From the IMG/VR virus record IMGVR_UViG_3300021142_000101, positions 1 through 34,174 of that record: 34,174 nt of DNA; one strand, 5' to 3'. The notes under the pieces are model-generated. The model searched no databases and was not told the origin of the DNA. It worked only from the letters and a program-made list of their open reading frames with translations. Below are positions 5,129-33,210 of the stretch, one piece after another (positions within the stretch are counted from its first letter, which is position 1; each line of letters starts with the position of its first letter). Made by a program: the position numbers and the translations under genes. This DNA is from a virus.

Positions 5129-5203
5129 GCCCTCATAGGATAATGGTTAGTCTACCGCACTTTCACTGCGGGTATTCCGGTTCGAATCCGGATGGGGGTA
5201 CCA
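5129..5203 (+). tRNA. tRNA-Glu (UUC), CCA encoded
   Basis: The cloverleaf is complete. The acceptor GCCCTCA pairs with TGGGGGT, and the anticodon stem CCGCA/TGCGG encloses CTTTCAC with anticodon TTC. The T arm is TCCGG-TTCGAAT-CCGGA, the discriminator A is at 5200 and CCA is encoded at 5201-5203. A TAAGTA hexamer ends 7 nt before the mature 5' end. Confidence 0.96.
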
Positions 5204-5209
5204 TTTTTT

Positions 5210-5280
5210 TGCCTGATGGTGTAATGGCAACACAAGCGACTTTGACTCGCTTTTTCCTCGTTCGAATCGAGGTCGGGCAG
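5210..5280 (+). tRNA. tRNA-Gln (UUG)
   Basis: The acceptor TGCCTGA pairs with TCGGGCA. The anticodon stem AGCGA/TCGCT encloses CTTTGAC (anticodon TTG). The T arm is CCTCG-TTCGAAT-CGAGG and the discriminator is G at 5280. The following bases are CTA, so CCA is not encoded, unlike the other two tRNAs here. It lies 6 nt after tRNA-Glu and is probably co-transcribed with it. Confidence 0.95.
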
Positions 5281-5302
5281 CTATTTGATAATATAGTAAC
5301 AA

Positions 5303-5308
5303 TAAGTA
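5303..5308 (+). promoter_or_regulatory. TAAGTA hexamer before methyltransferase gene
   Basis: TAAGTA with a 9-nt spacer to the ATG at 5318; a TTTAAATA overlaps the start codon. Confidence 0.35.
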
Positions 5309-5317
5309 AGTTTAAAT

Positions 5318-5878
5318 ATGGAGCATTATCATTATAAAGTGCCTGGTTGGTTTACATTTCCGAAACTATATTCAGAAATGGTTGAAAAGTACGATAATGC
5401 TCATTTTGTAGAAGTTGGTGCTTGGCAAGGTAGCTCTACTACATTTATGGCTGTAGAAATTATTAACTCTAATAAAAATATTAAGTTTAGTGTTTATGAT
5501 ATTTGGGGTAGATATTCTTTAGCGGGTCTAAATACTAAGAACTCAGAGCAGTTACCGGAAGATTATGTTTATGGGCTATTTTTAAACAATATAGACCCTG
5601 TAAAACATATAGTTAAGCCTACTAAGATGGCTTCTAATCAAGCTAGTCAGTTGCATGAAAACGGCTCTCTAGATTTTATTTTTATTGATGCTAATCATGA
5701 ATATGAAGCTGTAATGACCGATTTAATGTGCTGGTACCCTAAACTTAAAAAAGGCGGTACAATAGCTGGTCATGATTACTATGAAGACGAGGGAGTACAG
5801 AGAGCCGTAAAAGAGTTTTTTGGTGTAAACGATGACAGGCTTTATTGCGGAGAGAGATGCTGGAGAGTTGATGGGTAA
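5318..5878 (+). CDS. Class I SAM-dependent methyltransferase-like protein
   Basis: The 186-residue protein has the Rossmann-fold hallmarks of the Methyltransf_24 type. The glycine loop VEVGAWQGSS (31-40) should bind S-adenosylmethionine. SVYDIWG follows strand 2 (58-64), the FIFIDANHEYE segment is at 120-130 and KGGTIAGHDYY at 145-155. Related enzymes methylate sugars or small molecules on glycan-modifying loci. It leads into the sulfotransferase-like cassette and its stop overlaps the next start (TAATG, sharing one base). A TAAGTA hexamer lies 9 nt upstream. Substrate unknown. Confidence 0.82.
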   Translation: MEHYHYKVPGWFTFPKLYSEMVEKYDNAHFVEVGAWQGSSTTFMAVEIINSNKNIKFSVYDIWGRYSLAGLNTKNSEQLPEDYVYGLFLNNIDPVKHIVKPTKMASNQASQLHENGSLDFIFIDANHEYEAVMTDLMCWYPKLKKGGTIAGHDYYEDEGVQRAVKEFFGVNDDRLYCGERCWRVDG

Positions 5879-6531
5879 TGAACGTTTCAACTAAAGTACA
5901 ACATATTTGGTGGGCTACAGCTAGATGTGGTTCTCGTGCTGTTAGTGAAATATTGAAACACTACGATTTTTTTAACTATAAGGTATCCCCCATATTTACA
6001 CCTGAGTCAGATATAAGAAATGTTTCACACACGCATGATTATGGCGTGCCGAAAGAATATTCAGACTATAAAATAATAATACAGACTCGTAATCCTTATT
6101 CAAGAGAAGTCTCTAACTGGCACCTGGCTTGTTTTAAAGAAACAAAAAACGAACTTATTATTACGAAAGGCTTTGAAGAATGGGTATATGCAAATCAAAA
6201 AGCCGTAGTTGAGCAAGAGCTAAGAACATACAAACCGGATTATTATATAAGATACGAACATTTACAAGAAGATATACTGAATTTACCCTTTGTGGATATA
6301 AACAACCCTAATGTTTTGAGAGACTATCATTCTAATATATTAGCTAATCAATACAAATATGAAGGTGTTGATGATCCACGCGGAGATATTAGACGAGACA
6401 ATAAAGATGGTAGGTACGCAGATTGGAAATCATATTACATATATAACCCGAGAATAGCGGGTATCGTGCATGAAAAATACAAAGAACAGTTTAAGCTGTT
6501 TAATTACGAAAAAGATAGCTGGAAGCAATGA
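5878..6531 (+). CDS. Sulfotransferase-like protein (paralogue 1)
   Basis: The 217-residue protein has a candidate 5'-phosphosulfate-binding loop TARCGSRAV (14-22) after the first strand. It also has a 3'-phosphate-binding motif QTRNPYSREVSNW (69-81), the two signatures of PAPS-dependent sulfotransferases. The later block YIRYEHLQEDI.NLPF and the tail LFNYEKDSWK recur in the two paralogues at 6932 and 8441. It is expected to transfer sulfate to a sugar or other acceptor; the acceptor is unknown. It overlaps the methyltransferase by one base and the next gene by 4 nt (ATGA), so the three are coupled. Confidence 0.75.
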   Translation: MNVSTKVQHIWWATARCGSRAVSEILKHYDFFNYKVSPIFTPESDIRNVSHTHDYGVPKEYSDYKIIIQTRNPYSREVSNWHLACFKETKNELIITKGFEEWVYANQKAVVEQELRTYKPDYYIRYEHLQEDILNLPFVDINNPNVLRDYHSNILANQYKYEGVDDPRGDIRRDNKDGRYADWKSYYIYNPRIAGIVHEKYKEQFKLFNYEKDSWKQ

Positions 6532-6914
6532 ATCATTGTTGTGAAAAATGTCTAGGGTTTGAAGGTAATCATGGTGGTTGTTGCCAACTTGATGATAGAG
6601 ATTTTATAATAGGGCCAGTATCAGATCCAGCTGCTTTTTTACAAAGAGTACAAAATAAGTTTTCTGGGGTAAAAATAGAATGGAAAGACGTCTTTATAGA
6701 TTATGAGGAAGGTTCTAAAATGTTCCCGGAGAGATCTTTATATCAAAATCCAGCCCACTACCCTTCCCTAAGAGTTGACATAAAACACGAAAGAAAACCG
6801 TGTATTTTTTATAACTCTACTCTTAAATGTTGTAGTGTATACAGTATTAGACCTGATATGTGTAAGTTTTTTTCGTGTGATTATTTAAAAAATATAAAAA
6901 ATAACACTCAATAA
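6528..6914 (+). CDS. CxxC-rich metal-chelating protein (YkgJ/UPF0153-like)
   Basis: The 128-residue product has an N-terminal cysteine cluster (Cys4, Cys5, Cys8 and a later Cys-Cys pair near 18-19) and C-terminal cysteines in CIFY, KCCSVY, MCKFFSC. The YSIRPDMCKFFSC block is typical of the YkgJ family of putative zinc- or iron-binding proteins (the RP.xCR.F motif). In this family the cysteines are thought to hold a metal, and its biochemical role is unclear. It begins within the sulfotransferase stop (ATGA overlap), tying it to that cassette; it could support a metalloenzyme or modify proteins. Confidence 0.75.
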   Translation: MNHCCEKCLGFEGNHGGCCQLDDRDFIIGPVSDPAAFLQRVQNKFSGVKIEWKDVFIDYEEGSKMFPERSLYQNPAHYPSLRVDIKHERKPCIFYNSTLKCCSVYSIRPDMCKFFSCDYLKNIKNNTQ

Positions 6915-6919
6915 TAACA

Positions 6920-6925
6920 TAAATA
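6920..6925 (+). promoter_or_regulatory. TAAATA late-promoter-like element (CATAAATA)
   Basis: CATAAATA, spacer TACTAT (6 nt), then the ATG at 6932 of the second sulfotransferase-like gene. Confidence 0.6.
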
Positions 6926-6931
6926 TACTAT

Positions 6932-7564
6932 ATGGTTACATACAACGCACTTTCCGCTGTTCAAATTTTTACCTTTTATACAGGTAGTGAATATGTACAT
7001 AATTTTTTAACTGCTGTACAGTATGATTTTGTTAAGGGACACCCACACAAATATACCCCAGAATATCCTGTTAATACTAAAGTGTTTGTAGATACTACTA
7101 TACCTGAAGGTAAAACCTACTGTGTTGTAATTAACCCATACACTTATTTTGTTGGTATGTGGAACGCTAATTCAGTTAAAAGAACTAAAGACGGGTTTAC
7201 ACCTTTTACTTTTGCAGAATTCACTAATGATTATGTTAGTAGATATGCCACTTCTCGTGCACTTTCTGGTCGTTCCGCTCCTATCACGTATCAGTTAACC
7301 ACCGCTCAAGTAGCACCAAGTGCGGTACGCTTTTTAAAAGCCGAAACTATTGCAGATGGAATCAAACATTTGCCGAAAATTGATTTAACGATTACTGCTC
7401 AACTTCTTGCGTTTAATGAATTTATTGCAAATGGAGCAGCTACTATCGGTAATAGTACTGCTTGGAAATCTCAATACAACCAAACACTAGCAGATTTAGT
7501 CTACAGCACCAATTTTGTTTCCGATTTTACTGCATTTGGTTACGAAAAAGATAGTTGGAAATAA
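6932..7564 (+). CDS. Degenerate sulfotransferase-like protein (paralogue 2)
   Basis: The 210-residue protein aligns end to end, by eye, with the two other sulfotransferase-like proteins of this cassette. TFYTGSEYV (14-22) sits at the position of the phosphosulfate loop and VVINPYTYFVGMW (65-77) at the position of TRNPYSR.VSSW. The ETIADGIKHLPKI block corresponds to E.FNEDIIKIPFI, and the C-terminus FGYEKDSWK is nearly identical to the others. The conserved Arg of RNPYS is missing and the first loop lacks the basic residues, so it may be inactive or a binding/regulatory protein. A TAAATA hexamer precedes the ATG by 6 nt. Confidence 0.6.
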   Translation: MVTYNALSAVQIFTFYTGSEYVHNFLTAVQYDFVKGHPHKYTPEYPVNTKVFVDTTIPEGKTYCVVINPYTYFVGMWNANSVKRTKDGFTPFTFAEFTNDYVSRYATSRALSGRSAPITYQLTTAQVAPSAVRFLKAETIADGIKHLPKIDLTITAQLLAFNEFIANGAATIGNSTAWKSQYNQTLADLVYSTNFVSDFTAFGYEKDSWK

Positions 7565-7571
7565 TCTATAA

Positions 7572-7646
7572 GCGGGGTTAATTCAGTGGTAGAATATCTC
7601 GTTGCCAACGAGGATGTCGACGGTTCGAGCCCGTCACTCCGCTCCA
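7572..7646 (+). tRNA. tRNA-Gly (GCC), CCA encoded
   Basis: The acceptor GCGGGGT pairs with ACTCCGC. The anticodon stem TCTCG/CGAGG encloses TTGCCAA (anticodon GCC). The T arm is GACGG-TTCGAGC-CCGTC, with discriminator T at 7643 and CCA at 7644-7646. It lies 7 nt after the stop of the preceding gene and 2 nt from the end of the convergent SGNH gene. Confidence 0.96.
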
Positions 7647-10098: not shown

Positions 10099-10481
10099 GG
10101 GCCTGTACCAGATTCGACTCTGTGGCAGATGTATTAGAAGCAAGCAGGATTAGTAAATCCTTTATAAATTACTACAAAAACAAACGGCATTATTCAAAGC
10201 CTCAAGAACGCAGTCGCTTCCGTGAAAGAATCTCTTTCATTCGGCGATAGCTTCGCACTCGCAGCTGCTTAAGCTCGATCGGTTGCAATATAGATTCTCG
10301 CTATATATTACAACCGTCATTCAGCGAGACTGACTATTCAATGGTAGTAGAATAGCAGGAACACTACCAAACAACTTGTATATCAGCACTATGGGTATGC
10401 ATTTTATTAATAGTGCTAAGCTTGTAGAAACTGGTAAGAACGTTACAGAACACAGGGGTGCAACTCCCCTCAGGTCCACCA
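10099..10481 (+). ncRNA. ssrA: Transfer-messenger RNA (tmRNA), one-piece
   Basis: A 383-nt one-piece tmRNA. The 5' GGGCCTG (10099-10105) pairs with the 3' CAGGTCC (10471-10477), followed by A and an encoded CCA (10478-10481). The T arm is AGGGG-TGCAACT-CCCCT (10454-10470), and the 5' part has the tmRNA-specific CAGATTCGACTCTG. CAAGC (10141-10145) can pair with GCTTG (10420-10424) as helix P2, next to the conserved CTAAGCTTGTAG. Two pseudoknots follow the tag. One has stem CGGTTG/CAACCG with its loop TCTCG (10296-10300) pairing to CGAGA (10325-10329). The other is H-type, CTATTC/GAATAG (10334-10355) interlocked with GGTAGT/ACTACC (10343-10368). tmRNA rescues stalled ribosomes together with SmpB, which is not encoded here. 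Confidence 0.93.
10180..10272 (+). other. tmRNA proteolysis-tag reading frame
   Basis: The in-frame stop TAA is at 10270-10272 and the tag ends GDSFALAAA, a C-terminus like the ALAA degradation signals read by ClpXP/ClpAP. The frame is closed by TAA at 10165-10167, so the resume codon lies between 10168 and the tag body. The ACA-AAC at 10180, within ACAAAAACAAACGGC and about 82 nt from the 5' end, is my best estimate by analogy with E. coli (about nt 90). That would give a tag of about 30 residues, long but within the range seen in other tmRNAs. The exact resume codon is uncertain. Confidence 0.65.
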
Positions 10482-10485
10482 TTTT

Positions 10486-10527
10486 AAATCCAAATAGAAG
10501 TGATAGTTTATTCCTATGGATTTTTTT
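10486..10527 (+). terminator. Rho-independent terminator after tmRNA
   Basis: AAATCC (10486-10491) pairs with GGATTT (10518-10523), extended by ATAG/CTAT with a small bulge, followed by a run of seven T (10521-10527). It starts 4 nt after the CCA of the tmRNA and fits its 3' end formation. Confidence 0.7.
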
Positions 10528-10549
10528 AATATTATATAAGAAACACAAG

Positions 10550-10555
10550 TAAGTA
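10550..10555 (+). promoter_or_regulatory. TAAGTA late-promoter-like hexamer with structured leader
   Basis: TAAGTA lies between the tmRNA terminator and the small gene at 10630. A start about 5-6 nt downstream would place the hairpin TGCTGG/CCAGCA (10560-10580) at the very 5' end of the transcript. A GC-rich palindrome (10591-10602) and an unstructured CAA-rich stretch up to the ATG follow. Confidence 0.45.
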
Positions 10556-10629
10556 TTTGTGCTGGTGACATTATCCAGCATAACAACCAAAGCCCCCGGG
10601 CTGCGGTTCTAAACAAAACAACAACACAT

Positions 10630-10815
10630 ATGCAAGCAATAATCATAACAAGTTATCTTGCTGTTGGTGGTCTTGTTAGACTCGCGTACGAGGACTATAA
10701 GATAGGAAACAGTAAGACAAAAGCAAAGTTCGTTGAAAGTGTTAAAAAGTTTTGGGTAGGGTTTAAAGAAGCTTGGAAAGAAGCTATCTCAGCCCCGCAC
10801 CAACATCTATTTTAA
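10630..10815 (+). CDS. Small membrane-associated peptide
   Basis: A 61-residue product with an N-terminal hydrophobic stretch (residues 2-20) and a basic/aromatic amphipathic helix (about 30-55, with FWVGFKEAWKEAI), ending SAPHQHLF. It could be a single-span inner membrane peptide or a peripheral one. The gene is isolated: a tmRNA terminator lies upstream and its own strong terminator downstream. A roughly 70-nt leader with a 5' hairpin and no Shine-Dalgarno precedes it. Function unknown; candidates are a lysis accessory or host-takeover peptide. Confidence 0.6.
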   Translation: MQAIIITSYLAVGGLVRLAYEDYKIGNSKTKAKFVESVKKFWVGFKEAWKEAISAPHQHLF

Positions 10816-10837
10816 TACTATAAGTTAGAATAATAAC

Positions 10838-10876
10838 GCCCGGCTTGGAGCAATCTGAGCCGGGTTCCTTTTTTTT
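10838..10876 (+). terminator. Rho-independent terminator
   Basis: CCCGGCT (10839-10845) pairs with AGCCGGG (10858-10864), with flanking G-T pairs, followed by TTCCTTTTTTTT. It closes the small gene at 10630 and its T-run touches the convergent gene ending at 10875. Confidence 0.9.
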
Positions 10877-11675
10877 ATATTTCGGGTAACTCAGGACAAT
10901 CGTGATTAAGTTTTATCCATTCAGGAAAAACAAATATATCACCGTGCCAAGTAAAGCGATCTCTACGGTCATTGCATACTACATTAGTAGCGTTACTTAA
11001 CATACCCATCCACCAACAAAACGTACCCTCACTTAAGACAATATTATCGAAGTCCTTTACAAAGTTAATCTTTTCAATAGGTACATCATTATAATAAGGT
11101 TTAAGACCATAGCGGTTTATAAGTTCTATTACATCCGGGTGATTCATACTATCAGAAGTAATATACCCACCTGTACATCCTTTTTTAATTAAAAGCTCTA
11201 TTGCTTCTATATAATAAGATAGAGGTAGTCTCTGTCTTCTATGCGCTACATCTCCTAACCGTACAACCACCATCATCTGGTCTTTTGATTGGGGTTTATA
11301 TTCAATCTCAAACATACCTCGTATTTCATTACGATATTGTAATACGTAGTCTTTTATTTGAAACCAATGTAAAAAATGATAGTGCGCATCAGGTATACTG
11401 TCCTTGTTTAATAGCTCCATTAAATTTAAATCATGTACCGATACAACTGGTTCGGTAAATCGTTTAGTACCAATATTAGGTATAGTGTGTAATGGTTTAC
11501 CCGGTTCATTAAACCCTGAAGTTACTATTTGCGGTTTATCTGGAGATAAAGCAAATCCATAGAGAGGTTCAGGCTCAAAAACATATCCAAACTTTTTAGC
11601 AAATAACTGAGCGGTAACGTACATGAGCATTTGATTACCTGTTCTGTTACCATCTCCATAGTATACTGTTACCAT
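10875..11675 (-). CDS. Fucosyltransferase-like glycosyltransferase (GT11-like)
   Basis: The frame is open back to 11792, but the ATG at 11675 gives a clean N-terminus (MVTVYYGDGNRTGNQM, like the GxGNQMFQY opening of alpha-1,2-fucosyltransferases). It also removes overlap with the divergent gene at 11750. VVVRLGD (136-142) matches the HxRRGD motif. SYYIEAIELL follows, and LSEGTFCWWMGML (about 213-226) matches the NSTFSWW motif near the C-terminus. The 266-residue length fits GT11. It should transfer a sugar from a nucleotide donor to a glycan, probably decorating virion or host surface. The donor is inferred; RRGD has diverged to RLGD. Confidence 0.75.
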   Translation of the reverse strand: MVTVYYGDGNRTGNQMLMYVTAQLFAKKFGYVFEPEPLYGFALSPDKPQIVTSGFNEPGKPLHTIPNIGTKRFTEPVVSVHDLNLMELLNKDSIPDAHYHFLHWFQIKDYVLQYRNEIRGMFEIEYKPQSKDQMMVVVRLGDVAHRRQRLPLSYYIEAIELLIKKGCTGGYITSDSMNHPDVIELINRYGLKPYYNDVPIEKINFVKDFDNIVLSEGTFCWWMGMLSNATNVVCNDRRDRFTWHGDIFVFPEWIKLNHDCPELPEI

Positions 11676-16761: not shown

Positions 16762-18317
16762 TAGGTTATATTGCTCCTTATATCAATGTTATCGTTAGCA
16801 TGTACACGAACAGCTGTTATATCGTTTGTATACTGACCTAAAGTAAAATGATGTACTACTGTATGTACAAACCATTGCCCGAGCAACTTGTTATGAAACT
16901 CGTCCATATTAATGCCTTTGCCCTTTTCAACGCTAATAAACGTACCAGACTCTCTAATAGGAGAACCTAAAGCTGTAAAACTTACTGCAGTATTATAATA
17001 TAATGCAGACATTAACATAAAGTTTCTACTTTCTGCCAATCTACTTGTTTTATCTGGGCTTAAAGAGTAAACGTTCTTAACCGCTAACGTGTCTGTTTTA
17101 GTTTTATTTAATGTGACAAGAGTATCAGGTTTTGCACTAATACGCATCTTATTAGAATAGTTCTTATCAATATAATTCTTTACATTGGTAATATCATTGC
17201 TAACTACTTCAAGATTAAATACTTTATTGTTGTAATCATTACTATAACAAGGAGTTGTCACCATATCTTGAGTACTATCAATGGTAGACATGTCTGTAAA
17301 ATTAATATTAGTTATATTGCTTGTGGTTGGGTGCTGTATATTGGTTTTTCCGTCGCTTCTACCGAAAGGAGATTGAGGTAATTCAAATAAGAAGCCGCCA
17401 CTATCGTTACCGCCAGGGTAAGATAGAGTAATAATTTCTCTTTGCAAATTACCAGCAACAGCTGTTGAGAAGTTATATTTTACCGCACTATTAAATATAT
17501 TACAAAATGAAGTTAAGCTCCACACAGTATCATATCTAGAACGATTAATAATACAAGGGTCTGCGCCTCCATCAGCCCCTATTTGAGAGCTAACATGCTT
17601 TTTTAACAAGTAATTTAAGCTATCATAAGCAGTGTAGTTAGCCGGAGCACTATAAAACGCTTTACTAGAACCTATATCCCAGTTTGTTGAAAATACTGGT
17701 GGTTCTGAATGTGCTAAAGCTTTATTTAATAGACTTTTAATAGCAGTACCAGTATTAACTAGCTTTTGATCATCTGTAGCATATGCTGGTATAATATTAG
17801 TAGGTAGTGCTTCATTAGTAGACCACTGTAAAGCGGTTTCGTTTAATATTTGCTGATCATATTCCCACAAATAAAGCTTAAGTGTTTCTTTAGCGGGGCT
17901 ATCACCGGGGGTATCTTCTTTGTCGTATATAGCAAACTTATACTGCATACCCCACACATTATAATCTATATTAGCAGGTGCAACGTTTATATCTGTGTCG
18001 TCTATAATCTTAAAACGTATATAAACAATATCTCTACCATCGTTCCTGAACTTATAGTACTGATTTTTATTAGTACTTGGAGTTATTTTTTGCTCAAATA
18101 TTTTTTCTGGATTGCTTATAACTAAACTAGCTCTTCTAAACCAATCAGTAGTGTTTTCCTGTATGTCTAAAGAAACCATACTTGCAACATTAAGCTGAAA
18201 AGTATTACCCTGTAAGTTATCAAATATAATATCTAACTGATACTTTTGGTTATTATACTTTAAAGTATTAATAGTCGATGGAGCTATTCCATTAAAAACT
18301 GTGCTAAATTGAGGCAT
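16761..18317 (-). CDS. Baseplate hub protein (gp27-like, probable)
   Basis: The 518-residue protein has a beta-rich N-terminus (YQLDIIFDNLQGNTFQLN) and a central YDSLNYLLKKHVSS helix, common in hub proteins. The closing segment LLGQWFVHTVVHHFTLGQYTNDITAVRVH is characteristic of phage tail hub proteins that sit on the spike. In T4, gp27 (391 aa) links tube, tape measure and gp5. It starts on the stop base of the gp53-like gene and is followed by the spike region, which fits. The assignment is by pattern and position. Confidence 0.6.
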   Translation of the reverse strand: MPQFSTVFNGIAPSTINTLKYNNQKYQLDIIFDNLQGNTFQLNVASMVSLDIQENTTDWFRRASLVISNPEKIFEQKITPSTNKNQYYKFRNDGRDIVYIRFKIIDDTDINVAPANIDYNVWGMQYKFAIYDKEDTPGDSPAKETLKLYLWEYDQQILNETALQWSTNEALPTNIIPAYATDDQKLVNTGTAIKSLLNKALAHSEPPVFSTNWDIGSSKAFYSAPANYTAYDSLNYLLKKHVSSQIGADGGADPCIINRSRYDTVWSLTSFCNIFNSAVKYNFSTAVAGNLQREIITLSYPGGNDSGGFLFELPQSPFGRSDGKTNIQHPTTSNITNINFTDMSTIDSTQDMVTTPCYSNDYNNKVFNLEVVSNDITNVKNYIDKNYSNKMRISAKPDTLVTLNKTKTDTLAVKNVYSLSPDKTSRLAESRNFMLMSALYYNTAVSFTALGSPIRESGTFISVEKGKGINMDEFHNKLLGQWFVHTVVHHFTLGQYTNDITAVRVHANDNIDIRSNIT

Positions 18318-18673
18318 TAGCTTTTATTAATTTGCTGTAATATAGCAGATACGTATGTAGGGGTTAAGACTTTTAAAACTGTACCGGCTTTTGGAAAATA
18401 TGTAGGATCTTGTATGTTGTTAGTGCAGCATATTAACCACCATAAAGCAGGCGCGTTGTAAACCTTTTGAGCTATTAAAGGCCAAGGCATATAATCACTC
18501 GTCACCACAAAGTTAGTATACACACTATTATCTAAGTTAGAAGGTATATTAACAGTACCTATTAAGTTATAGAAATAGTTCTGCCCATCATTATACACAT
18601 TAAACAAGTTTTCCAGGTACTGCTGGCTTAATGTAGGTAACGTAGATATACTGTTTTGTTTTTGTCCGTCCAT
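18317..18673 (-). CDS. Baseplate wedge protein, gp53-like
   Basis: The 118-residue protein has the gp53/LysM-like pattern FVVTSDYMPWPLIAQKVYNA-PALWWLICCTNNIQDP with a closing KAGTVLKVLTP strand, as in T4 gp53 and related wedge proteins. In T4, gp53 joins wedges into the six-fold baseplate. It lies 1 nt after the gene at 18675-20144 and overlaps the hub-like gene by one base. Confidence 0.78.
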   Translation of the reverse strand: MDGQKQNSISTLPTLSQQYLENLFNVYNDGQNYFYNLIGTVNIPSNLDNSVYTNFVVTSDYMPWPLIAQKVYNAPALWWLICCTNNIQDPTYFPKAGTVLKVLTPTYVSAILQQINKS

Positions 18674-18674
18674 A

Positions 18675-20144
18675 TTAAGGGTTTGGGGTATTGAGTTTGT
18701 TTATATAATTTTGCGTAGTATTCACCGCTATGTTTGCGCTTTGCAGATTTTGCTGGGCAGTTGTGTTTGCTGCGTTTAAGTTTTGACCTGTTACAGATTG
18801 ATCCCAATTAGTAGGGAAGTATGATTTAAACGTGTTTAAATCTTCAGCTGCTGCATCTGCATCAATTTTAGCGTTTTCAGCTATTTTTTGATACTGATTC
18901 AACGTATTAGTAAGTTCTTGGTTTGAATTATTAATAGTATCCGGACTTGTTATAACATTTATACTAGCCCCAGCACCTTTAGGGTCATAGTTATAATAAA
19001 ATAAATTACGGGAATTCGTTAATAAACTTTGAATAGTAACAGTTACTCTATACGCTTCAGGTACAATTTTTACGTTTTTACTATCAGTAGCTTTATCTAC
19101 TGACATCATTTCTCCGGTAGTTATATCTACCAATCTTGTAGTGCCTACATTATCTACTTTTAAGCCAGTTATTACCGCGACTGGAAATCTTTTGAACCCT
19201 GGAACTGTAACTGTGTATATACATGGTGGGTCCATTCTACTTAATGATTTTCTATTAGGTAAGTTTTGATAAGTCAATGTAAAAAGAAAATTCCAGTTGT
19301 TCGCCATTTGAGCCTGGTCTTGAGTATTAAACAGGTAAAACGTTGTAACAATTGAGTCTCCTGTGTCGTTTGGTGCAAATGCTTTTATAGTTTCTTTAGA
19401 TATACCAGGCGCATTTAAACTAGAGGCAACATTAGCCACGCTGTTAATAGCATCAAGTTTTAATCCTAAATTCTGAAATTCCTTAACTAAATCAGAGCCA
19501 GTCGGCCCAAATTGTAATCCACCTAATTTATCAGCTGCAACATTACTGACATCTTTTGCAACATTACTACCATCAATTCCTTTCCATGTACCTAAGTTAG
19601 AAGTCATGTTTTGCGGGTTCAAGTAAGGTAAATAATACTTGTTACCGGTTTCTTTACCTTGATAAAGACCGTAATACGGATCTGCATTACTAAACCCCCC
19701 TGGTTGTGCTACTCCGTTATTTGGCCCTAAATACTTATCTACTGAACCGGTTGGTAAAACGCCACTGTTAATAAGAGATGCAATATTAGAAGTAACAGTA
19801 TTAGGTTGTCCTGCAACACCTACTTGGTTTATATTTGCTATATTAAGTTGATCTTGAGCTTGAGATAAAAATAACTTATATGCGTTTAACTGAGAACTAG
19901 ATGTAAGATCATACTCTACCAACTCAATTTTAGGTATATAATTTCTTATATCCCCATTATTCGGACCTAAATTTAAAGCCCAGTTATATTCCTCGTGCAC
20001 CTTCCATTCTTTAACTGGTATTTTAGGCGCGCCGGTATAACTTGCTTTCGGGTTGTAACCGCTACTACTAGTATTACTCTGTTCTGGTATTACAGCTGTT
20101 GAGCCTGTTTCAGATGTACCACCTATTAAACCAAATAGATCCAT
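18675..20144 (-). CDS. Baseplate structural protein (unknown)
   Basis: The 489-residue protein has a disordered N-terminus (1-45). Its central low-complexity region is rich in Asn and Gly. Its structural core is at about 270-390 (TFYLFNTQDQAQMANNWNFLFT, VPGFKRFPVAVITGLKVDN, EAYRVTVTIQSLL) and a C-terminal coiled coil at about 400-480. The core resembles tube-proximal baseplate proteins, but no exact T4 counterpart is clear; gp48/gp54-type tube initiators are one possibility. TAAATA lies 5 nt before its ATG. Confidence 0.6.
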   Translation of the reverse strand: MDLFGLIGGTSETGSTAVIPEQSNTSSSGYNPKASYTGAPKIPVKEWKVHEEYNWALNLGPNNGDIRNYIPKIELVEYDLTSSSQLNAYKLFLSQAQDQLNIANINQVGVAGQPNTVTSNIASLINSGVLPTGSVDKYLGPNNGVAQPGGFSNADPYYGLYQGKETGNKYYLPYLNPQNMTSNLGTWKGIDGSNVAKDVSNVAADKLGGLQFGPTGSDLVKEFQNLGLKLDAINSVANVASSLNAPGISKETIKAFAPNDTGDSIVTTFYLFNTQDQAQMANNWNFLFTLTYQNLPNRKSLSRMDPPCIYTVTVPGFKRFPVAVITGLKVDNVGTTRLVDITTGEMMSVDKATDSKNVKIVPEAYRVTVTIQSLLTNSRNLFYYNYDPKGAGASINVITSPDTINNSNQELTNTLNQYQKIAENAKIDADAAAEDLNTFKSYFPTNWDQSVTGQNLNAANTTAQQNLQSANIAVNTTQNYINKLNTPNP

Positions 20145-20149
20145 AATAT

Positions 20150-20155
20150 TATTTA
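20150..20155 (-). promoter_or_regulatory. TAAATA late-promoter-like hexamer
   Basis: TAAATA, spacer of 5 nt, then the ATG at 20144. No Shine-Dalgarno is visible. It lies over the 3' end of the tape measure gene, so it would be an internal promoter of the tail module. Confidence 0.5.
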
Positions 20156-21988
20156 AGCGTTAGCCCTCCTATTGTATAAAAAGTTATCTATTCTAAGACG
20201 AGAATTAGTAATAGGATTGCCTTGAGATATTATGTTTATAGTGCTATTTGAAGAATTGTTACTAGAATTCATTAAACCAGTAAGTTTTGATGAAGACTGA
20301 TCGTTATTAGTGTTATTTTTTACATCAAGCTTGTCGCTTATATCTAGCAACGTTTTATTCATAGTTTGTAGTGTACTACTAGAGCTGTCTCCTATATTAG
20401 TAGTATTAGATATAGCCGCTAATTTTTCTGAAGGTAAGGATATAACCTGTGTTAAAAGAGAGGTTATTTTTTCTACTGCAGCAGGGTTCGTTGTATCTTT
20501 TTCTTTACCGGTTAAAAGGTTATTAGGTATTATGTTTCCTGTACTTTCAGGCACAAATATTTCTGGGCCTTCTTCCCCTACCAATACTGGCTTGTTCGGG
20601 GTTTTTATAGGGCCACCCTTTGCCTGTCTGTTTTGAGAATCAGCAAAATAATCCGTCAAAGCTTCTATAACTCCAAATCCAGCACCGGCGAGTAGTTCTA
20701 CAGGTATAAGCGGGGTATTTGCACCAGCTGATGCTACTTCTGCAGCTGCAATACCCGTAGTTGTAACTGCTTCAGCCTTGCCTATGTCTTTTGCTGCAAT
20801 TTTTAAAAAACGAGCCATTGCAGCTTCTTTAATAACGTCCTCAGCAACTGTGGGTACTAAACCAGGACCTTTACTTCCTTTTTTATCTGATGTTGTAGGT
20901 AACCCTTCCCCTGCTTGACCTTCTATGTTTTCATATTGCGGTTTATTTTTAGCTGCGAGGTTATCTATACCTTGACTAACCCGATCTACATTTTTACTAG
21001 CACCCTCTACTTTCTTTTTAACTTCATCAGTATCAGTTTTCGTGTTTTCTCTTTTTTCGGTTAATACCTTTTTTAATGCATTTGCAATTGCATCAGCTGC
21101 TTCATCAGATATTTTTGTTAATACTATTTCAGCAGGGGCATTCTCTTCGCTAACAACTGCCCCACCTTCTTTAACTACTTTACTACCTGTTGAAGTTTCG
21201 TCTACTGTTATAGGAGAAGTTGTTATAGCAGAGTTGCCGTTAACAGGTAGTAAAGTAGGTGTTTCTGTTTTTACTTCCTGTTTTTCATCAGCAGTAGTAT
21301 CGTCTGGAGCCTTAACCGGTGGTACTCCTTTAGAAACATCGCTTAAATTATCTTCAGTGGTTACACCGTACTGTTCGCTAAGCTCTTTGTTTAAATTATT
21401 AAGATCCTGCCCGCTCGCTGCTTGTAGTTTTTTTTGCTCAAGAGTTTTTTTATTTATTTTTCTTTCTAACTCTTTTATTGCTTCTGCTTCTTTAAGCTCT
21501 TCTCCAGTAAACAAACCTTGAGCTTTTTCTATAACAGCTTTATTAAGACTCTCAAGTATTTCCTTACCACCGATAAACCCTAATATATTTTGTACAGTTT
21601 TCGGAATAAATCTACCAATAAAACCTTCCACTTGTTTTAACTTATCTGAAGTTATATCTTCAACTCTTTTTAATTTTTCTTTTGTTGAGCGTTCTGATTC
21701 ATCTTCTCCCTTGTCTTCAAACTTAGCTTTACGTTCATTTAAAATTGCCTGCGCATAATTTAAAGCGCTCTTATTATATCCTTCTTCAGTATTATTCTTA
21801 TTGTTTGTTCTAGTAGAAGCTTCTTCAGTTTTTCTAGTTAACTGATCAACATTTTCGCTTAATTTTTTTATCGTTTCTTTTAGAGATGGATTTGATCCGT
21901 CTCCTTTAACTAAAGCATCCGTGAGCGTGTTTAAAGCAATTTCAAATTTTGCTTTGTCACCAGATTCTACGTCTGCAGTGTCGCTCAT
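20153..21988 (-). CDS. Tail tape measure protein (gp29-like)
   Basis: The 611-residue protein is close to T4 gp29 (590 aa). It has long charged coiled-coil segments (about 1-110 and 170-215), a hydrophobic section near 395-440 (GIAAAEVASAGANTPLIPVELLAGAGFG) and the hallmark KPVLVGEEGPEIFVPE block (about 460-480), found in the C-terminal part of tape measure proteins. A Ser/Asn-rich tail follows. It would span the tube lumen and set tail length. The two upstream gp26/gp51-like proteins and the downstream baseplate genes fit. TAAGTA lies 5 nt before its ATG. Confidence 0.85.
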   Translation of the reverse strand: MSDTADVESGDKAKFEIALNTLTDALVKGDGSNPSLKETIKKLSENVDQLTRKTEEASTRTNNKNNTEEGYNKSALNYAQAILNERKAKFEDKGEDESERSTKEKLKRVEDITSDKLKQVEGFIGRFIPKTVQNILGFIGGKEILESLNKAVIEKAQGLFTGEELKEAEAIKELERKINKKTLEQKKLQAASGQDLNNLNKELSEQYGVTTEDNLSDVSKGVPPVKAPDDTTADEKQEVKTETPTLLPVNGNSAITTSPITVDETSTGSKVVKEGGAVVSEENAPAEIVLTKISDEAADAIANALKKVLTEKRENTKTDTDEVKKKVEGASKNVDRVSQGIDNLAAKNKPQYENIEGQAGEGLPTTSDKKGSKGPGLVPTVAEDVIKEAAMARFLKIAAKDIGKAEAVTTTGIAAAEVASAGANTPLIPVELLAGAGFGVIEALTDYFADSQNRQAKGGPIKTPNKPVLVGEEGPEIFVPESTGNIIPNNLLTGKEKDTTNPAAVEKITSLLTQVISLPSEKLAAISNTTNIGDSSSSTLQTMNKTLLDISDKLDVKNNTNNDQSSSKLTGLMNSSNNSSNSTINIISQGNPITNSRLRIDNFLYNRRANA

Positions 21989-21993
21989 AAAAA

Positions 21994-21999
21994 TACTTA
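21994..21999 (-). promoter_or_regulatory. TAAGTA late-promoter-like hexamer
   Basis: TAAGTA, five T, then the ATG at 21988 of the tape measure gene. No Shine-Dalgarno is visible. Confidence 0.55.
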
Positions 22000-22020
22000 G
22001 GTACTAAACCAGTCTTTATG

Positions 22021-22761
22021 TTATTCAGCTAAAAAGAAATCCGCATTTATATAAAATTGAAAGCGAGTACCGTCACTGTTTAATACATTAGTAACGCTAT
22101 CCTGTAAATTAGTTACTTTTTCTGCAAAACTTTGAATACTGTTTAATGTACTAGCTGGTAAGTTTTCAACTAATCTTATACGTTCTTTATAATTAAAAGT
22201 TTTAAAATTTAAATCAGTGTCCTCAACTTGTATATTTTTTATAAACTTACAGCAACCACCGATAATAAGATTTTCAGTTAAAGTATTAATAGTGACTGTT
22301 TCTTCTTTAAGATCCCCTCTAAGTTCAACTTCCATTTCATATACTTCTTTTAAAGTTGGTATTTGAGTATTAATTTTTATATTATCAATAGTTAATAACA
22401 CCTCTTCAGGTAATGCTATAGTTGAAGCAAGTGCCAAATTAGAACTAAAGTCGATATTTTTTACTGTAGTGCCTAAAATATTTTTTCTTAATGCTAATAA
22501 AATAAACGCTCTATCGATAATGTTTATTTGATCTAGTATATCTGGTTCTAAGCAGTTATCTTTAATAATGTTATACGTTACTATAACAAACTTAGTATTA
22601 TACAGTATATTGTCTTTAATACAAGCGTACAGATTTTTATATTGCTTTGTACTAACAGGTTTAAACTTCACTATTCTTTGAAAGCTAGGTAAAAACACCT
22701 CTATGGAGTTTTTTACCGCATTAGCATTAATACTTGCAATAAATTCATTTATATCAGACAT
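22021..22761 (-). CDS. Baseplate hub assembly protein, gp26/gp51-like
   Basis: The 246-residue protein resembles the T4_baseplate family (gp26, 208 aa; gp51, 249 aa). It has an N-terminal strand pair IEVFLPSFQRIVKFKPVSTKQYKNLY, a central ALRKNILG region, then beta strands, and a helical C-terminus starting at ERIRLVENLPASTLNSIQSF. Those T4 proteins act in hub assembly, probably as tape-measure chaperones. It sits directly before the tape measure gene. The upstream gene is a likely paralogue with the same layout (Q.P.K.Y..L at the N-terminus, ELPL at the same late position). TAAGTA lies 5 nt before its ATG. Confidence 0.68.
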   Translation of the reverse strand: MSDINEFIASINANAVKNSIEVFLPSFQRIVKFKPVSTKQYKNLYACIKDNILYNTKFVIVTYNIIKDNCLEPDILDQINIIDRAFILLALRKNILGTTVKNIDFSSNLALASTIALPEEVLLTIDNIKINTQIPTLKEVYEMEVELRGDLKEETVTINTLTENLIIGGCCKFIKNIQVEDTDLNFKTFNYKERIRLVENLPASTLNSIQSFAEKVTNLQDSVTNVLNSDGTRFQFYINADFFLAE

Positions 22762-22766
22762 AAAAG

Positions 22767-22772
22767 TACTTA
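22767..22772 (-). promoter_or_regulatory. TAAGTA late-promoter-like hexamer
   Basis: TAAGTA, spacer CTTTT, then the ATG at 22761. It lies in the 21-nt gap between the two gp26/gp51-like genes. No Shine-Dalgarno is visible. Confidence 0.55.
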
Positions 22773-22782
22773 CATTAATATA

Positions 22783-23703
22783 CTAAAAGCCTAGTTCTGA
22801 ATTCGGGGTGCTGGTAGGCATATTCAATCCGCCACCCGGTCTTACCGCGTTATTTTGCTCTTGCTGCTTGGCGTTATCTTGCATAAGATACATCCAATAT
22901 ACCTGTAACTCAATAGGGGTAATACTATCTGCATATTCTGCAGAAAACCCTAGATACTTTACTACATTGTAAAGAGTTCTGTAAATGTTGTTTAAACTTT
23001 CAGTATATAAAAACTCTACCATTTTTTGCAACATTTCAAATGTTATATTACAATTAAATCTTAATATAATACTACCAGTATTAGGGTCTTTTATTAGAAG
23101 TAAGTCAGTGTCATATAAATGATCAGTTTTTTCAATATCCCTTACAATAGCCTTAATTACTATAAGTGGTAACTCTTGTATTATTTTAACTCTAGCTTCT
23201 AATGTTAAATCCTTGAATATAACGATTGTTTCTTCTATTTTAAGGCTATCTATAATAGAAGCTAAATTAACAAATGTATCTCTGTTGTTATTAAGGAAAA
23301 CATGTTCGTCTCTAACTTTATAACTAGAATATTGCACAGTAATATCGTTGCAAACAACTGTACTGGATTTATTAATACTTTTAACTTTACTTAATATAGT
23401 TTCTATTGGTACTGTAAAACTATAAGACGTTCCATCTTGCAAATTACATTTAAGTTTTAAATCCGGACTTACGCAATAATTACGTATGGTTAAAAGCAAG
23501 GATAGCTTATCTTCAAAAGTAATATCATATCCAGCTATATCCGGACAAAGATCTTTTAAAATAGCGTTATACTGTAATATAGTTTCTTTTTTATCAGTAT
23601 TATGCAAGCTTTTCACAAGATCTCTATATTGTTTGTAATGAAGCTCGCTTATTAATACTTCCTGCTTTTTGCTAGGCAAGTATGCATTTAACTTAAAAGA
23701 CAT
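22783..23703 (-). CDS. Baseplate hub assembly protein, gp26/gp51-like (paralogue)
   Basis: The 306-residue protein shares the layout of its downstream neighbour. It has an N-terminal FKLNAYLPSKKQEVLISELHYKQY block, a central helix (DKLSLLLTIRNYCV), beta strands, and EARVKIIQELPLIVIKAIV matching the ERIRLVENLPASTLNSI block. It carries an extra helical C-terminal extension and a Gly/Asn/Pro-rich tail. The likely role is hub assembly or tape-measure chaperoning. A TAAGTT variant hexamer lies 7 nt before its ATG. Confidence 0.65.
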   Translation of the reverse strand: MSFKLNAYLPSKKQEVLISELHYKQYRDLVKSLHNTDKKETILQYNAILKDLCPDIAGYDITFEDKLSLLLTIRNYCVSPDLKLKCNLQDGTSYSFTVPIETILSKVKSINKSSTVVCNDITVQYSSYKVRDEHVFLNNNRDTFVNLASIIDSLKIEETIVIFKDLTLEARVKIIQELPLIVIKAIVRDIEKTDHLYDTDLLLIKDPNTGSIILRFNCNITFEMLQKMVEFLYTESLNNIYRTLYNVVKYLGFSAEYADSITPIELQVYWMYLMQDNAKQQEQNNAVRPGGGLNMPTSTPNSELGF

Positions 23704-28537: not shown

Positions 28538-29149
28538 TTACAGTAATTCTGAAGTCAACTGGCTGAACGAGAACGTAAATGAAGACTCTAACTGATCAGC
28601 ATCTCTATAACTATAAGCTATGCCTGTTAAATTTGTAATAAAGGCTTTGCTATACGTCCAACGGATTTTCTTATTGTTATATTCATCCAACCCCTCCACC
28701 ACTACGCTTGTTTGGTAAGGTTGTAGATTTGCTAAGCCTGTATATTGAGTTGGTGTTTGAGGTAGTTGTGTTAGGTTATCTGGATCCATAGTACTACTTG
28801 TAGCGCCGTTTATATAATCCAACCACTTCCATAATACCCACCAGTTGTTATAATTGTTATCTACTGTAAAGTTTACAGTAATGTTTTGGTACTTCTCTCT
28901 TTTGTTAGAAGTTACGCTTAAAGTTTGACCGGAAAATGGTAAATCGACAGGATTTATTGCGGTAGCAGGTACAACTGTACCGTAAACCGAATATTGCAAA
29001 GAATCTAGATATACTCCATCATTTGTTCTGTCGCTTTGATTTAATATATTAATCTTTTTAAGAGCGTCAGGCAGGTTTAACGTGAGTAGAAATTTATCTT
29101 TTCTACTTTTATTAAGAATAGACTGTTGTGTTATAGGTCCGAGTGCCAT
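28538..29149 (-). CDS. Tube-like tail protein upstream of sheath
   Basis: The 203-residue protein has LDSLQYSVYGTVVPA, a later strand ITVNFTVDNNYNNWWVLWKWLDYINGA, and a C-terminal strand pair ending SSFTFSFSQL, a pattern seen in tube-fold proteins of marine T4-like phages. It overlaps the nucleotidyltransferase gene by one base and precedes the sheath gene. It could be a tail terminator or baseplate tube element; the exact T4 equivalent is unclear. Confidence 0.6.
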   Translation of the reverse strand: MALGPITQQSILNKSRKDKFLLTLNLPDALKKINILNQSDRTNDGVYLDSLQYSVYGTVVPATAINPVDLPFSGQTLSVTSNKREKYQNITVNFTVDNNYNNWWVLWKWLDYINGATSSTMDPDNLTQLPQTPTQYTGLANLQPYQTSVVVEGLDEYNNKKIRWTYSKAFITNLTGIAYSYRDADQLESSFTFSFSQLTSELL

Positions 29150-30216
29150 TATTTGCCTTTTTCTTTCTTTTCTAAATAGTGTCTTCTTACAATTGGATCA
29201 AAACCGAGTACAATGCCACTAGTACTTAGACCGCGAGGCTCGGTATTTACCTTATCCATATTCATACTATAAAAACGAGCAATTGCTTGAGCGGTTTGAG
29301 GTATAATATATATTTTACCACGTGGTTTCTTTTTTAAGTTTTCAATTTCAGGAAAAGGAGTCTCCATCTCTCTGTGAGTCTTAGCAATAATACTGACCGA
29401 TTTTGTATCGTGTCTAGTTAACTTGCTCATACCCGCCGTAGGAGATTGATGTCTTGGACCGCGACTACCTTTACCGCTAGTCATGCCTGGTTGAGACATA
29501 AACGTCTTGAAAGTTTCGGCTTCTTGGTTTAAAGATAGCTCTTTATCTCTCTTAGCTATTACGCCTTGTATTAACCTATCAATATCTTTAGTACGTCTCA
29601 ACTCTTTATACGCTAAATTTTCTATAGAGTACTCCCCGCCTTTAACTAGACCAGCTTGTCTAGTTTTTAAAATTTTATCTTTTACATTTTCAGCACACTC
29701 TAAGTCACATTTATCGCTTAAAGCATGGTCAATCATATGTCTCATCGCTTCAGCCTTTTTAGCTAACTCTTTTTTATCTATATGACCTGATTTTTCAGGT
29801 TTATGCACCCAAGTATCGTTCTTTAACGAATATACACCTGTAGAATGATGCGGTTCAAGTATATCTTGTATATATACTTCTACATCATAGTTTTTAACTT
29901 TAATTTCATGAGTACTGTTCCAAACAGTCTTTTTAGCTTTAAAATAGTCTTTAAGTAAAGCCTCGTCTATATTATACTCTCTACAGTCTGTTATAACATG
30001 TAAATCAAAGTCACTATATTCAGTATAGTTATAGTTAGCTAAAGAACCAGTCAAAGTTATATCTTCAACATCGACTGGTATTTCTATAGATTCTAAAAAT
30101 GCTTCAGCTACTTCTAATAATTTGTTCTTAACATCTGGGTTAATAGTATTCCCGTTCCACACTAATGGATTAAGAGTGTCGTGGTATTCAAACGTAAGCT
30201 TATCAACGGGTAACAT
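29149..30216 (-). CDS. Nucleotidyltransferase-fold protein
   Basis: The 355-residue protein has the polymerase-beta-type motif: LTGSLANYNYTEYSDFDLHVI (residues 55-75) gives GS, then D69-x-D71, and VKNYDVEVYIQD at 107-118 supplies the third acidic strand. The fold transfers nucleoside monophosphates onto RNA, protein or antibiotics. A helical middle (150-235) and a basic C-terminal region (240-355, with RGPRHQSPTAG and KKKPRGKIYI) follow. It sits between the terminase and sheath genes, directly coupled to the tube-like gene, so a virion or late role is possible. Target unknown. Confidence 0.78.
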   Translation of the reverse strand: MLPVDKLTFEYHDTLNPLVWNGNTINPDVKNKLLEVAEAFLESIEIPVDVEDITLTGSLANYNYTEYSDFDLHVITDCREYNIDEALLKDYFKAKKTVWNSTHEIKVKNYDVEVYIQDILEPHHSTGVYSLKNDTWVHKPEKSGHIDKKELAKKAEAMRHMIDHALSDKCDLECAENVKDKILKTRQAGLVKGGEYSIENLAYKELRRTKDIDRLIQGVIAKRDKELSLNQEAETFKTFMSQPGMTSGKGSRGPRHQSPTAGMSKLTRHDTKSVSIIAKTHREMETPFPEIENLKKKPRGKIYIIPQTAQAIARFYSMNMDKVNTEPRGLSTSGIVLGFDPIVRRHYLEKKEKGK

Positions 30217-30972: not shown

Positions 30973-33210
30973 ATGGCAAAAGCAAAAGGAGATCAGACTA
31001 CATATTATTTGGGTAATAAGAACTTGCCTGTACCCGAAACTCAGTTTAACTGGACACCGGAAATGGTGGAAGACTTGGAGAGAGCGCGCAAATCTATTTT
31101 ACACTTCTCTCGTTTCTTTTACATTGTTAGTTTGGACGAAGGTAAGCAGCCAATCAAGCTTTATAACTTTCAAAAAAGAGTGCTTAAAGCGTTGGTAGAG
31201 AATAGGTTTAACGTTGTATTAGCTTCTAGACAGATTGGTAAAGCGTTAGCACTAGATACCCCTATACCCACCCCTAATGGTTGGACTACAATGGGAGATT
31301 TAAAAACCGGTGATAAGGTTTATGGTTTAGACGGTAAAGCTTGTAACGTTACTCAAGCACACGATATACTACAAGATAGGGATTGCTATAAAATTACTTT
31401 TGATAGCGGTGAAGTCATTACAGCCGATGCTGAGCATTTATGGTTTACTCAAAGTAGAGACGAAAGACATAGTGGTGGTACGGTAAAAACTACTAAACAG
31501 ATATTTGATACATTAAATACATATGGTGGAGAGCCTAACCATAGAATACCAGCATGTAAAACGTTTACTCTAAATAATAAATGGCATTATATTAAAAACG
31601 TAGAAAAAATAGATTCGGTTCCGGTACGCTGTATAACAGTAGATAGCCCAGACAGCTTGTATCTTTGTGGTAAGCAATATATTCCTACTCATAATACCAC
31701 TATCCTAACCATATTTGCTTTATGGATGATTTGTTTTCATGACGATTATAGAGTATTACTGATTGCAAATAAACAAGAAACAGCTAAGAACATCTTTAAA
31801 CGTATTAAGTTAGCGTACGAAATGTTACCTAACTACATGAAACCAGGTGTAATAGCTTACGCTAAAGAAGGTATGGAACTAGAGAACGGCTCATCGATTG
31901 GTATTAGTACTACAACGTCTGATGCTGCTAGAGGTGAGTCTATTAACTGCCTACTCTTGGACGAAGCTGCATTTATCCCATCAGAGTTTATGGATGACTT
32001 TTGGGAGTCAGTATTCCCTGTCATTTCGTCCTCTAAAAAGTCTAAAATCTTTATGTTATCTACTCCTAATGGTGTAGGTAATCTTTTCTTTAACACCTAT
32101 ACAGATGCAGTAGCGGGTAAAAACGGTTGGCACCACGAGCGAGTAGATTGGCACGAGGTTCCAGGTAGAGATGACAAATGGAAAGAAATGACTATGAGAG
32201 CTCTTGGTTCCGAGGAGTCCTTTAATCAAGAGTATGGTAACGAGTTTAGAGCTGCTGGTGAAAATATTTTCGATAAAGACCAGTTAGATGAATTAACTAG
32301 TAATGCCCCAGAACCCGTCTATGAAGATGATGACGGTACATTTAAAATTTATAAAGATCATATTGATGGACATTTTTATAGTATAGGGGTTGACGTTGGC
32401 GAGGGTATAGGTAGAGCTAACTCTACTATACAAGTAGTGGATGTTACTGATTTAACTAACATAGAACAAGTAGCTACATATGCTAATAACAAACTAGACC
32501 CATTTAACTTTACTGGGAAGCTCGTAGAAATAGCCGGTCAATGGGGTAACCCTCCATTATTAGTAGAGCGTAACAACTGCGGTGCTTCAGTAGTAGATGC
32601 ATTAGTTAATACTCATCAATATCCTAATATAGTAAAGTATACTCCAAGTATGGGTTCGTTTACTGAAAAAGTAGAAAAAGATAACCGTTTAGGTGTTTAT
32701 TCCCATACTAATAGTAAGTTCAACTCCATGGCTAACTTTAGATACTGGATGAACGTACTAAGGTGTGTTAAGTTGTATGATAAAGCCACTATAGAAGAAT
32801 TTAAAACCTATATACGTCAAGCTAATGGGGTATGGAAGAAGCAATCTGACAAGTACTTGGATGATAGAGTAGAAGCTCTTATATGGGCAATGTTTATACT
32901 AGACCCTAAAGTGGTAGAACAGTTTTACGAGGTTACCCAACAAGACAGCAATGGTAGACCATTACACATGATACCTAATAACTGGGACCCGTTTGTAGTT
33001 AGTATGCCAAAGCCTTCTGAAATGTATAATAAGTTTAGTAAAAATAAAGAACCAGATGTTACTGCTCGTAACCCTGTTATCATATCTCAAGGACCAAGCA
33101 ATAGCAACCCTGATATGGATGAACTGTTTGAACAGGGCTGGAGATTGCCTCATGGTAGTCCTGCTGCGGCTATGTTAGATAAAAGGTTTATAAACGATAG
33201 ACCTTATTAA
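30973..33210 (+). CDS. Terminase large subunit, gp17-like, interrupted by an intein
   Basis: The 745-residue precursor is an ATPase/nuclease that packages DNA. The ATPase has Walker A SRQIGK-[intein]-TT with Lys90, Walker B LLLDEAAF with Asp330/Glu331, and the coupling motif LSTPNG at about 362-367. The RNase H-like nuclease has Asp474 (GVDVGEG), Glu532 (LVERNN) and Asp630/Asp631 (YLDDRVEALIW). Residues 91-241 are a 151-residue intein; removal leaves 594 aa, close to T4 gp17 (610 aa). Splicing is needed to restore the ATP-binding loop. The gene is divergent from the tail module and is the only plus-strand gene in the right third. Confidence 0.96.
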   Translation: MAKAKGDQTTYYLGNKNLPVPETQFNWTPEMVEDLERARKSILHFSRFFYIVSLDEGKQPIKLYNFQKRVLKALVENRFNVVLASRQIGKALALDTPIPTPNGWTTMGDLKTGDKVYGLDGKACNVTQAHDILQDRDCYKITFDSGEVITADAEHLWFTQSRDERHSGGTVKTTKQIFDTLNTYGGEPNHRIPACKTFTLNNKWHYIKNVEKIDSVPVRCITVDSPDSLYLCGKQYIPTHNTTILTIFALWMICFHDDYRVLLIANKQETAKNIFKRIKLAYEMLPNYMKPGVIAYAKEGMELENGSSIGISTTTSDAARGESINCLLLDEAAFIPSEFMDDFWESVFPVISSSKKSKIFMLSTPNGVGNLFFNTYTDAVAGKNGWHHERVDWHEVPGRDDKWKEMTMRALGSEESFNQEYGNEFRAAGENIFDKDQLDELTSNAPEPVYEDDDGTFKIYKDHIDGHFYSIGVDVGEGIGRANSTIQVVDVTDLTNIEQVATYANNKLDPFNFTGKLVEIAGQWGNPPLLVERNNCGASVVDALVNTHQYPNIVKYTPSMGSFTEKVEKDNRLGVYSHTNSKFNSMANFRYWMNVLRCVKLYDKATIEEFKTYIRQANGVWKKQSDKYLDDRVEALIWAMFILDPKVVEQFYEVTQQDSNGRPLHMIPNNWDPFVVSMPKPSEMYNKFSKNKEPDVTARNPVIISQGPSNSNPDMDELFEQGWRLPHGSPAAAMLDKRFINDRPY
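31243..31695 (+). other. Class 3-type mini-intein in the terminase Walker A motif
   Basis: The insertion separates Lys90 and Thr242 of GK|TT. Block A is ALALDTPIPTPNGW with Ala1 rather than Cys/Ser. The middle holds GDKVYGLDG, and block B is ITADAEHLWFT with His65 and Trp67. Block F is VPVRCITVDSPDSLYL with Cys130, and block G is YIPTHN with Thr149 and the terminal Asn151, followed by extein Thr. Ala1 with Trp/Cys/Thr at these positions is the WCT signature of class 3 inteins, which splice through the block F Cys. There is no homing endonuclease domain between blocks B and F (about 50 residues only). Confidence 0.93.

Follow-up and report, generated by a model that had tools for sequence, protein, structure and literature searches.

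The terminase large subunit (TerL) gene in the 34,174-nucleotide viral stretch analyzed here (IMG/VR record IMGVR_UViG_3300021142_000101, positions 1 to 34,174; referred to below as the window) is very probably interrupted by a cis-splicing class 3 mini-intein, a former homing element lacking its LAGLIDADG domain, as judged from sequence and a structure model. The gene is of the T4 gp17 type (positions 30973 to 33210, plus strand), and its open reading frame (ORF) matched Pfam Terminase_6N (PF03237; E = 9.5e-12) as well as PHROG terminase families. It encodes a 745-aa precursor, of which 594 aa are predicted to remain after splicing. The N-extein (30973 to 31242, plus strand; 90 aa) ends at Walker A SRQIGK, the point at which empty alleles join; it is followed by the 151-aa putative intein (31243 to 31695, plus strand; precursor residues 91 to 241), which was recognized by its residues, phmmer matches, relatives, and structure model, and by a C-extein with the remaining ATPase domain and the nuclease domain (31696 to 33210, plus strand). 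The insertion lies in frame between the Lys and the Thr of the Walker A motif, with junctions reading SRQIGK/ALALDTPIPTPNGW...YIPTHN/TTILTIF. The original prediction, made from the letters alone, had placed a 151-residue insertion at exactly this point and was right to the base, and every residue that it had named (Ala1, His65, Trp67, Cys130, Thr149, and Asn151) is found at its claimed position. The G+C content of the intein does not differ from that of the extein (0.366 versus 0.377). The same insertion is present in two further contigs, L001 and L002, at 99.97 to 100% identity to the window, so the intein is not a quirk of a single assembly, and the reading frame is open across it in all three.

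Judged by sequence comparison and the modeled fold, the insertion is a class 3 intein. Its first residue is the non-nucleophilic Ala1 (31243 to 31245, plus strand) rather than Cys, Ser, or Thr. In alignment with the Msm and Mch DnaB inteins, it has the WCT residues, namely, Trp67 in block B (B:12; 31441 to 31443, plus strand), Cys130 in block F (F:4; 31630 to 31632, plus strand), which is the predicted initiating nucleophile, and Thr149 in block G (G:5). Thr149 belongs to the terminal Thr149-His150-Asn151 (31687 to 31695, plus strand), which also supplies the penultimate His and the cyclizing Asn and is followed by Thr+1 (31696 to 31698, plus strand), the predicted second splicing nucleophile and, once the protein is spliced, the Walker A Thr. 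His65 of block B (B:10; 31435 to 31437, plus strand), Trp67, Cys130, Thr149, and Asn151 are invariant in an alignment of 65 unique inteins (63 collected here plus two from the PDB), a set gathered by similarity to the window intein and hence biased toward it; within this set, position 1 is Ala in 57 inteins, and position 48 (Cys48; 31384 to 31386, plus strand) is Cys in 55.

A phmmer search of the PDB returned three full-length matches (residues 1 to 151), all of them mycobacterial DnaB class 3 mini-inteins (6rix, E = 1.7e-30; 6riy, E = 8.2e-30; 6bs8, E = 2.5e-28), the next match being the class 1 gp41-1 intein. The predicted structure has the HINT fold, whose lack the original prediction had named as grounds for dropping the class 3 assignment: the AlphaFold model, built on an input alignment of 39 inteins (the window and the loci), has a mean pLDDT of 96.3, and its best Foldseek matches are again 6riy, 6rix, and 6bs8 (E = 6.5e-14 to 8e-13; target TM score up to 0.93), with other Hint proteins ranking below them. 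Scanned with Pfam and NCBIfam models, the intein drew only subthreshold Hint matches or none (best Pfam Hint E = 0.035), and the identification therefore rests on phmmer, structure, and the residue alignment.

At 151 aa, the putative intein consists of a splicing domain without an endonuclease domain; no LAGLIDADG motif and no endonuclease Pfam match were found in it. Residues 104 to 112 form a short linker (ACKTFTLNN; 31552 to 31578, plus strand) in the place where relatives hold about 196 more residues with a LAGLIDADG endonuclease, and the alignment to one such relative, L008, breaks at 31554/31580. The window intein thus has no endonuclease of its own with which to home, as had been foreseen, and Pfam revealed no helper homing endonuclease elsewhere in the window, with the structural genes at 12.5 to 23.7 kb partly scanned. 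It had also been proposed that the element was either a relic or kept by cis-splicing; both descriptions hold, and the choice between them is a false one, since a homing relic in this position must still splice.

Intein-free alleles, which the original prediction had suggested looking for in related phages, were found and are precisely empty. Three of them (L003, L004, and L048) align to the window up to base 31242 and pick up again at 31692 to 31696, which identifies the window element as a precise 453-bp insertion. L048, from a 140-kb contig aligning to window positions 10.3 to 34.2 kb, is 97 to 100% identical to the window over 12 to 18, 23 to 29.5, and 33.5 to 34 kb, and over many kilobases this intein-free phage reaches 98 to 100% identity. 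The intein itself lies in a mosaic tract with approximate ends at 29700 and 33500, where identity to L048 is 76 to 93%, versus 97 to 100% in most of the flanks. Further low-identity tracts, which hold no intein, occur at 18300 to 23000 and 10500 to 11500, so we rejected a reading in which divergence next to the intein would prove homing coconversion; what the tract demonstrates is recombination. The phage population is strongly mosaic, with several divergent tracts in a backbone that is 97 to 100% identical.

Using the complete TerL as query, we recovered 69 loci from viral contigs. The P-loop was readable in 64 TerL ORFs, of which 59 (31 distinct sequences) were empty and 5 carried an intein. 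With just the intein as query, 80 loci were recovered, most of them with inteins of 328 to 410 residues bearing LAGLIDADG motifs; PF14528 was detected in that of L008. Those in T4-type terminases mostly share the same insertion point between Lys and Thr or Ser, and class 3 inteins at the exact TerL site occur widely among uncultured T4-like phages. Class 3 inteins, mini-inteins included, are also common in actinobacterial genomes, and an earlier census counted 1701 class 3 inteins, 82.5% of them with LAGLIDADG motifs (PMC7891396).

Short forms were found in four lineages, i.e., the window (151 residues), L073 (157), L080 (146), and L096 (145), and the intein of L098 is shortened to 281 residues. 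On a tree of splicing domains, the four short forms fall apart from one another: the closest to the window mini-intein are the 347-aa forms of L065/L077, the closest to L073 is the 346-aa form of L082, and the closest to L080 are the 352-aa forms of L086 and L087. Forcing the short forms into one clade cost 99.7 log-likelihood units (AU test, P = 1.4e-6), by which we rejected one common origin for all the phage mini-inteins sampled. As the short forms stand apart on the tree and their leftover linkers differ, these sequences indicate that the endonuclease was lost repeatedly, separately in the four lineages, the window's included. The descent of the window intein from endonuclease-bearing inteins at the same site bears out the suspected relic status. 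The window mini-intein is not a recent deletion of the L008 copy, an origin rejected on a splicing-domain dS of about 0.8, as high as that of the extein. Identities between mini and full forms were taken per segment, because aligning whole inteins over the deletion depresses the values.

The endonuclease-bearing form bears the marks of having spread recently at the site, its flanks being exchanged in the process. The 347-aa intein is 99.7 to 100% identical over 1041 nt in L007, L008, L074, L075, L076, and L077, and the exteins of these carriers include pairs as low as 78 to 81% identical. In L007 and L008, the C-exteins are 99.9% identical and the N-exteins 80%, with the break at the intein. 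On the extein tree, which recombination may distort, intein-bearing alleles occupy three separate places inside the terminase clade of the window.

We infer splicing and its chemistry from the residues of the element and from studied relatives, and we likewise infer a lack of regulation. In the TerL precursor as translated, the Walker A loop would be split, and the Hint domain would fold; Cys130, activated by His65 in the WCT site, would attack the bond between Lys and Ala1 and form a branched thioester at block F, from which the N-extein would be taken over by Thr+1. Cyclization of Asn151 and an acyl shift would then leave the exteins joined as GK-TT and the ATPase restored. For the DnaB mini-inteins of Msm and Mle, the class 3 pathway has been demonstrated (PMC5222942); a mechanism involving His65 has also been proposed (PMC7664689). 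Its ancestor at this site was a homing intein with an endonuclease, and the LAGLIDADG domain was probably lost by in-frame deletion. The remaining mini-intein may persist because splicing costs little and precise removal seldom happens, and it would now travel only together with its flanking sequence, through ordinary recombination among phages. The dN/dS of the mini-intein against L008 is 0.10 to 0.12 in the splicing segments (exteins, 0.06 to 0.16), values that come from divergent pairs with high dS and average the time before and after endonuclease loss; a ratio of about 0.1 in both segments indicates that the fold has been kept under selection.

That the intein no longer splices and TerL is dead is extremely unlikely. 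T4-type phages need gp17, the catalytic residues are all intact, the frame is open with dN/dS of about 0.1, and the same allele recurs in two more contigs at 99.97 to 100% identity. The original prediction had gone further and suggested that splicing might act as a late-stage control on packaging. This finds no support here, since the intein is polymorphically absent, both from L048 (98 to 100% identical over many kilobases) and from 59 of the 64 TerL ORFs; nor is dN/dS of about 0.1 a sign of regulation, because an intein in the P-loop of an essential gene must be under purifying selection whether it is regulated or not. A more specific version is a conditional intein in which redox or metal conditions (a Cys48-Cys130 disulfide or zinc on Cys130) slow splicing and time the packaging ATPase. 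In its favor, Cys48 occupies the same position as in Mycobacterium smegmatis DnaBi1, whose splicing is blocked by a disulfide between Cys48 and Cys118 (PMC6195587); zinc also blocks splicing of DnaBi1 and binds Cys118, Val119, and Tyr128 (PMC7360933), with which Cys130, Ile131, and Tyr140 of the window intein align, and unspliced TerL, interrupted in its P-loop, should be without ATPase. However, Cys48 is a family-wide residue (55 of 65 inteins), present in selfish endonuclease-bearing forms too, and so is no sign of phage control, and most close relatives, including the near-identical one, do without the intein. We therefore consider conditional splicing very unlikely.

Compatible with our preferred reading of a spliced homing relic, to which it would add a reason for persistence, is the idea that the mini-intein is a drive-resistant allele, occupying, and thereby destroying, the target of the endonuclease-bearing form and sparing TerL from cleavage in coinfection. 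The recent spread of the 347-aa form at the exact site and the emergence of short forms in four lineages speak for such a benefit, but the homing cycle alone predicts endonuclease decay without one (PMC1654191), and we rate the idea as decidedly improbable. We likewise put forward as speculative, and on balance unlikely, the wider picture of one T4-like clade with one P-loop site at which empty alleles, a recently sweeping full form, and separately disarmed mini-inteins kept as resistance alleles coexist; if true, it would amount to a natural gene drive with its resistance alleles, all stages of the homing cycle being present at one site. The intein itself is an ordinary member of a well-known family and is notable mainly for its coexisting empty, full, and mini alleles. 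They form a natural series, in which near-identical phages either have or lack the insertion, an endonuclease form has recently spread at the same site, and short forms exist in four lineages; with it, both the homing cycle and the drive-resistance idea could be tested in phages.

Other insertions were observed in TerL genes of the survey. Ten loci (L088, L089, L092, L093, L098, L101, L105, L106, L111, and L116) carry, besides a class 3 P-loop intein, another insertion that begins with Cys and lies farther downstream, at one of at least two sites (immediately before Walker B and after ...KVEFE), and their TerL ORFs stop about 25 to 50 residues into it. These genes apparently have two inteins per TerL, the second split early; partner halves of the second inteins were not found. 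In L061 (710 to 2046), the P-loop is empty and a different intein lies at EFGN/C...HVHN/CFRA, made up of a short N-part some 37 codons long, a separate ORF encoding about 300 aa (816 to 1736), and a 103-aa C-part that matches intein splicing domains. The separate ORF has, by eye, the look of a Vsr/PD-(D/E)XK-type endonuclease, with no Pfam match, and the whole resembles the atypically split AceL-TerL intein.

Elsewhere, the window encodes a phage-borne tmRNA at 10099 to 10481 on the plus strand (Rfam RF00023; 73 bits; E = 9e-27; no ARAGORN call), whose frame finishes in what looks like a normal degradation tag, ...KESLSFGDSFALAAA-stop. Three tRNA genes (Glu, Gln, and Gly) lie within 5129 to 7646 on the plus strand, and the first 9 kb also contains genes for GTP cyclohydrolase I, a 5'-3' exonuclease, and a methyltransferase, along with weak sulfotransferase matches. 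A nucleotidyltransferase-domain protein (29149 to 30216, minus strand; PF01909, E = 4.7e-6) adjoins the tail tube and sheath genes.

Among known systems, the mycobacterial DnaB mini-inteins (Msm DnaBi1, 6BS8; Mch DnaB1, 6RIX; and Mle DnaB) share with the window intein Ala1, the WCT residues, His65, Cys48, the THN end, the lack of an endonuclease, and a P-loop insertion between Lys and Ser or Thr; they are 139 to 145 aa long and about 40% identical to it in structural alignment. Their host differs, being a replicative helicase with Ser+1, whereas here it is a terminase with Thr+1. The terminase P-loop is also the site of the TerL1-a inteins reported in mycobacteriophages (PMC5050341). Terminase P-loop inteins likewise occur in the Escherichia phages kvi and ECD7 (Krischvirus) and in Synechococcus phage B23; in the cultured phages kvi and B23, a class 3 intein with the signature residues is inserted at the exact site, between Lys and Thr, but these inteins are 330 to 331 aa long, have LAGLIDADG motifs, and are 35 to 47% identical to the window intein. 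Another counterpart is the 347-aa intein of the uncultured L007, L008, and L074 to L079, which sits in the same gene at the same site with a splicing domain 84 to 85% identical to that of the window and differs in keeping its homing endonuclease and in its recent spread.
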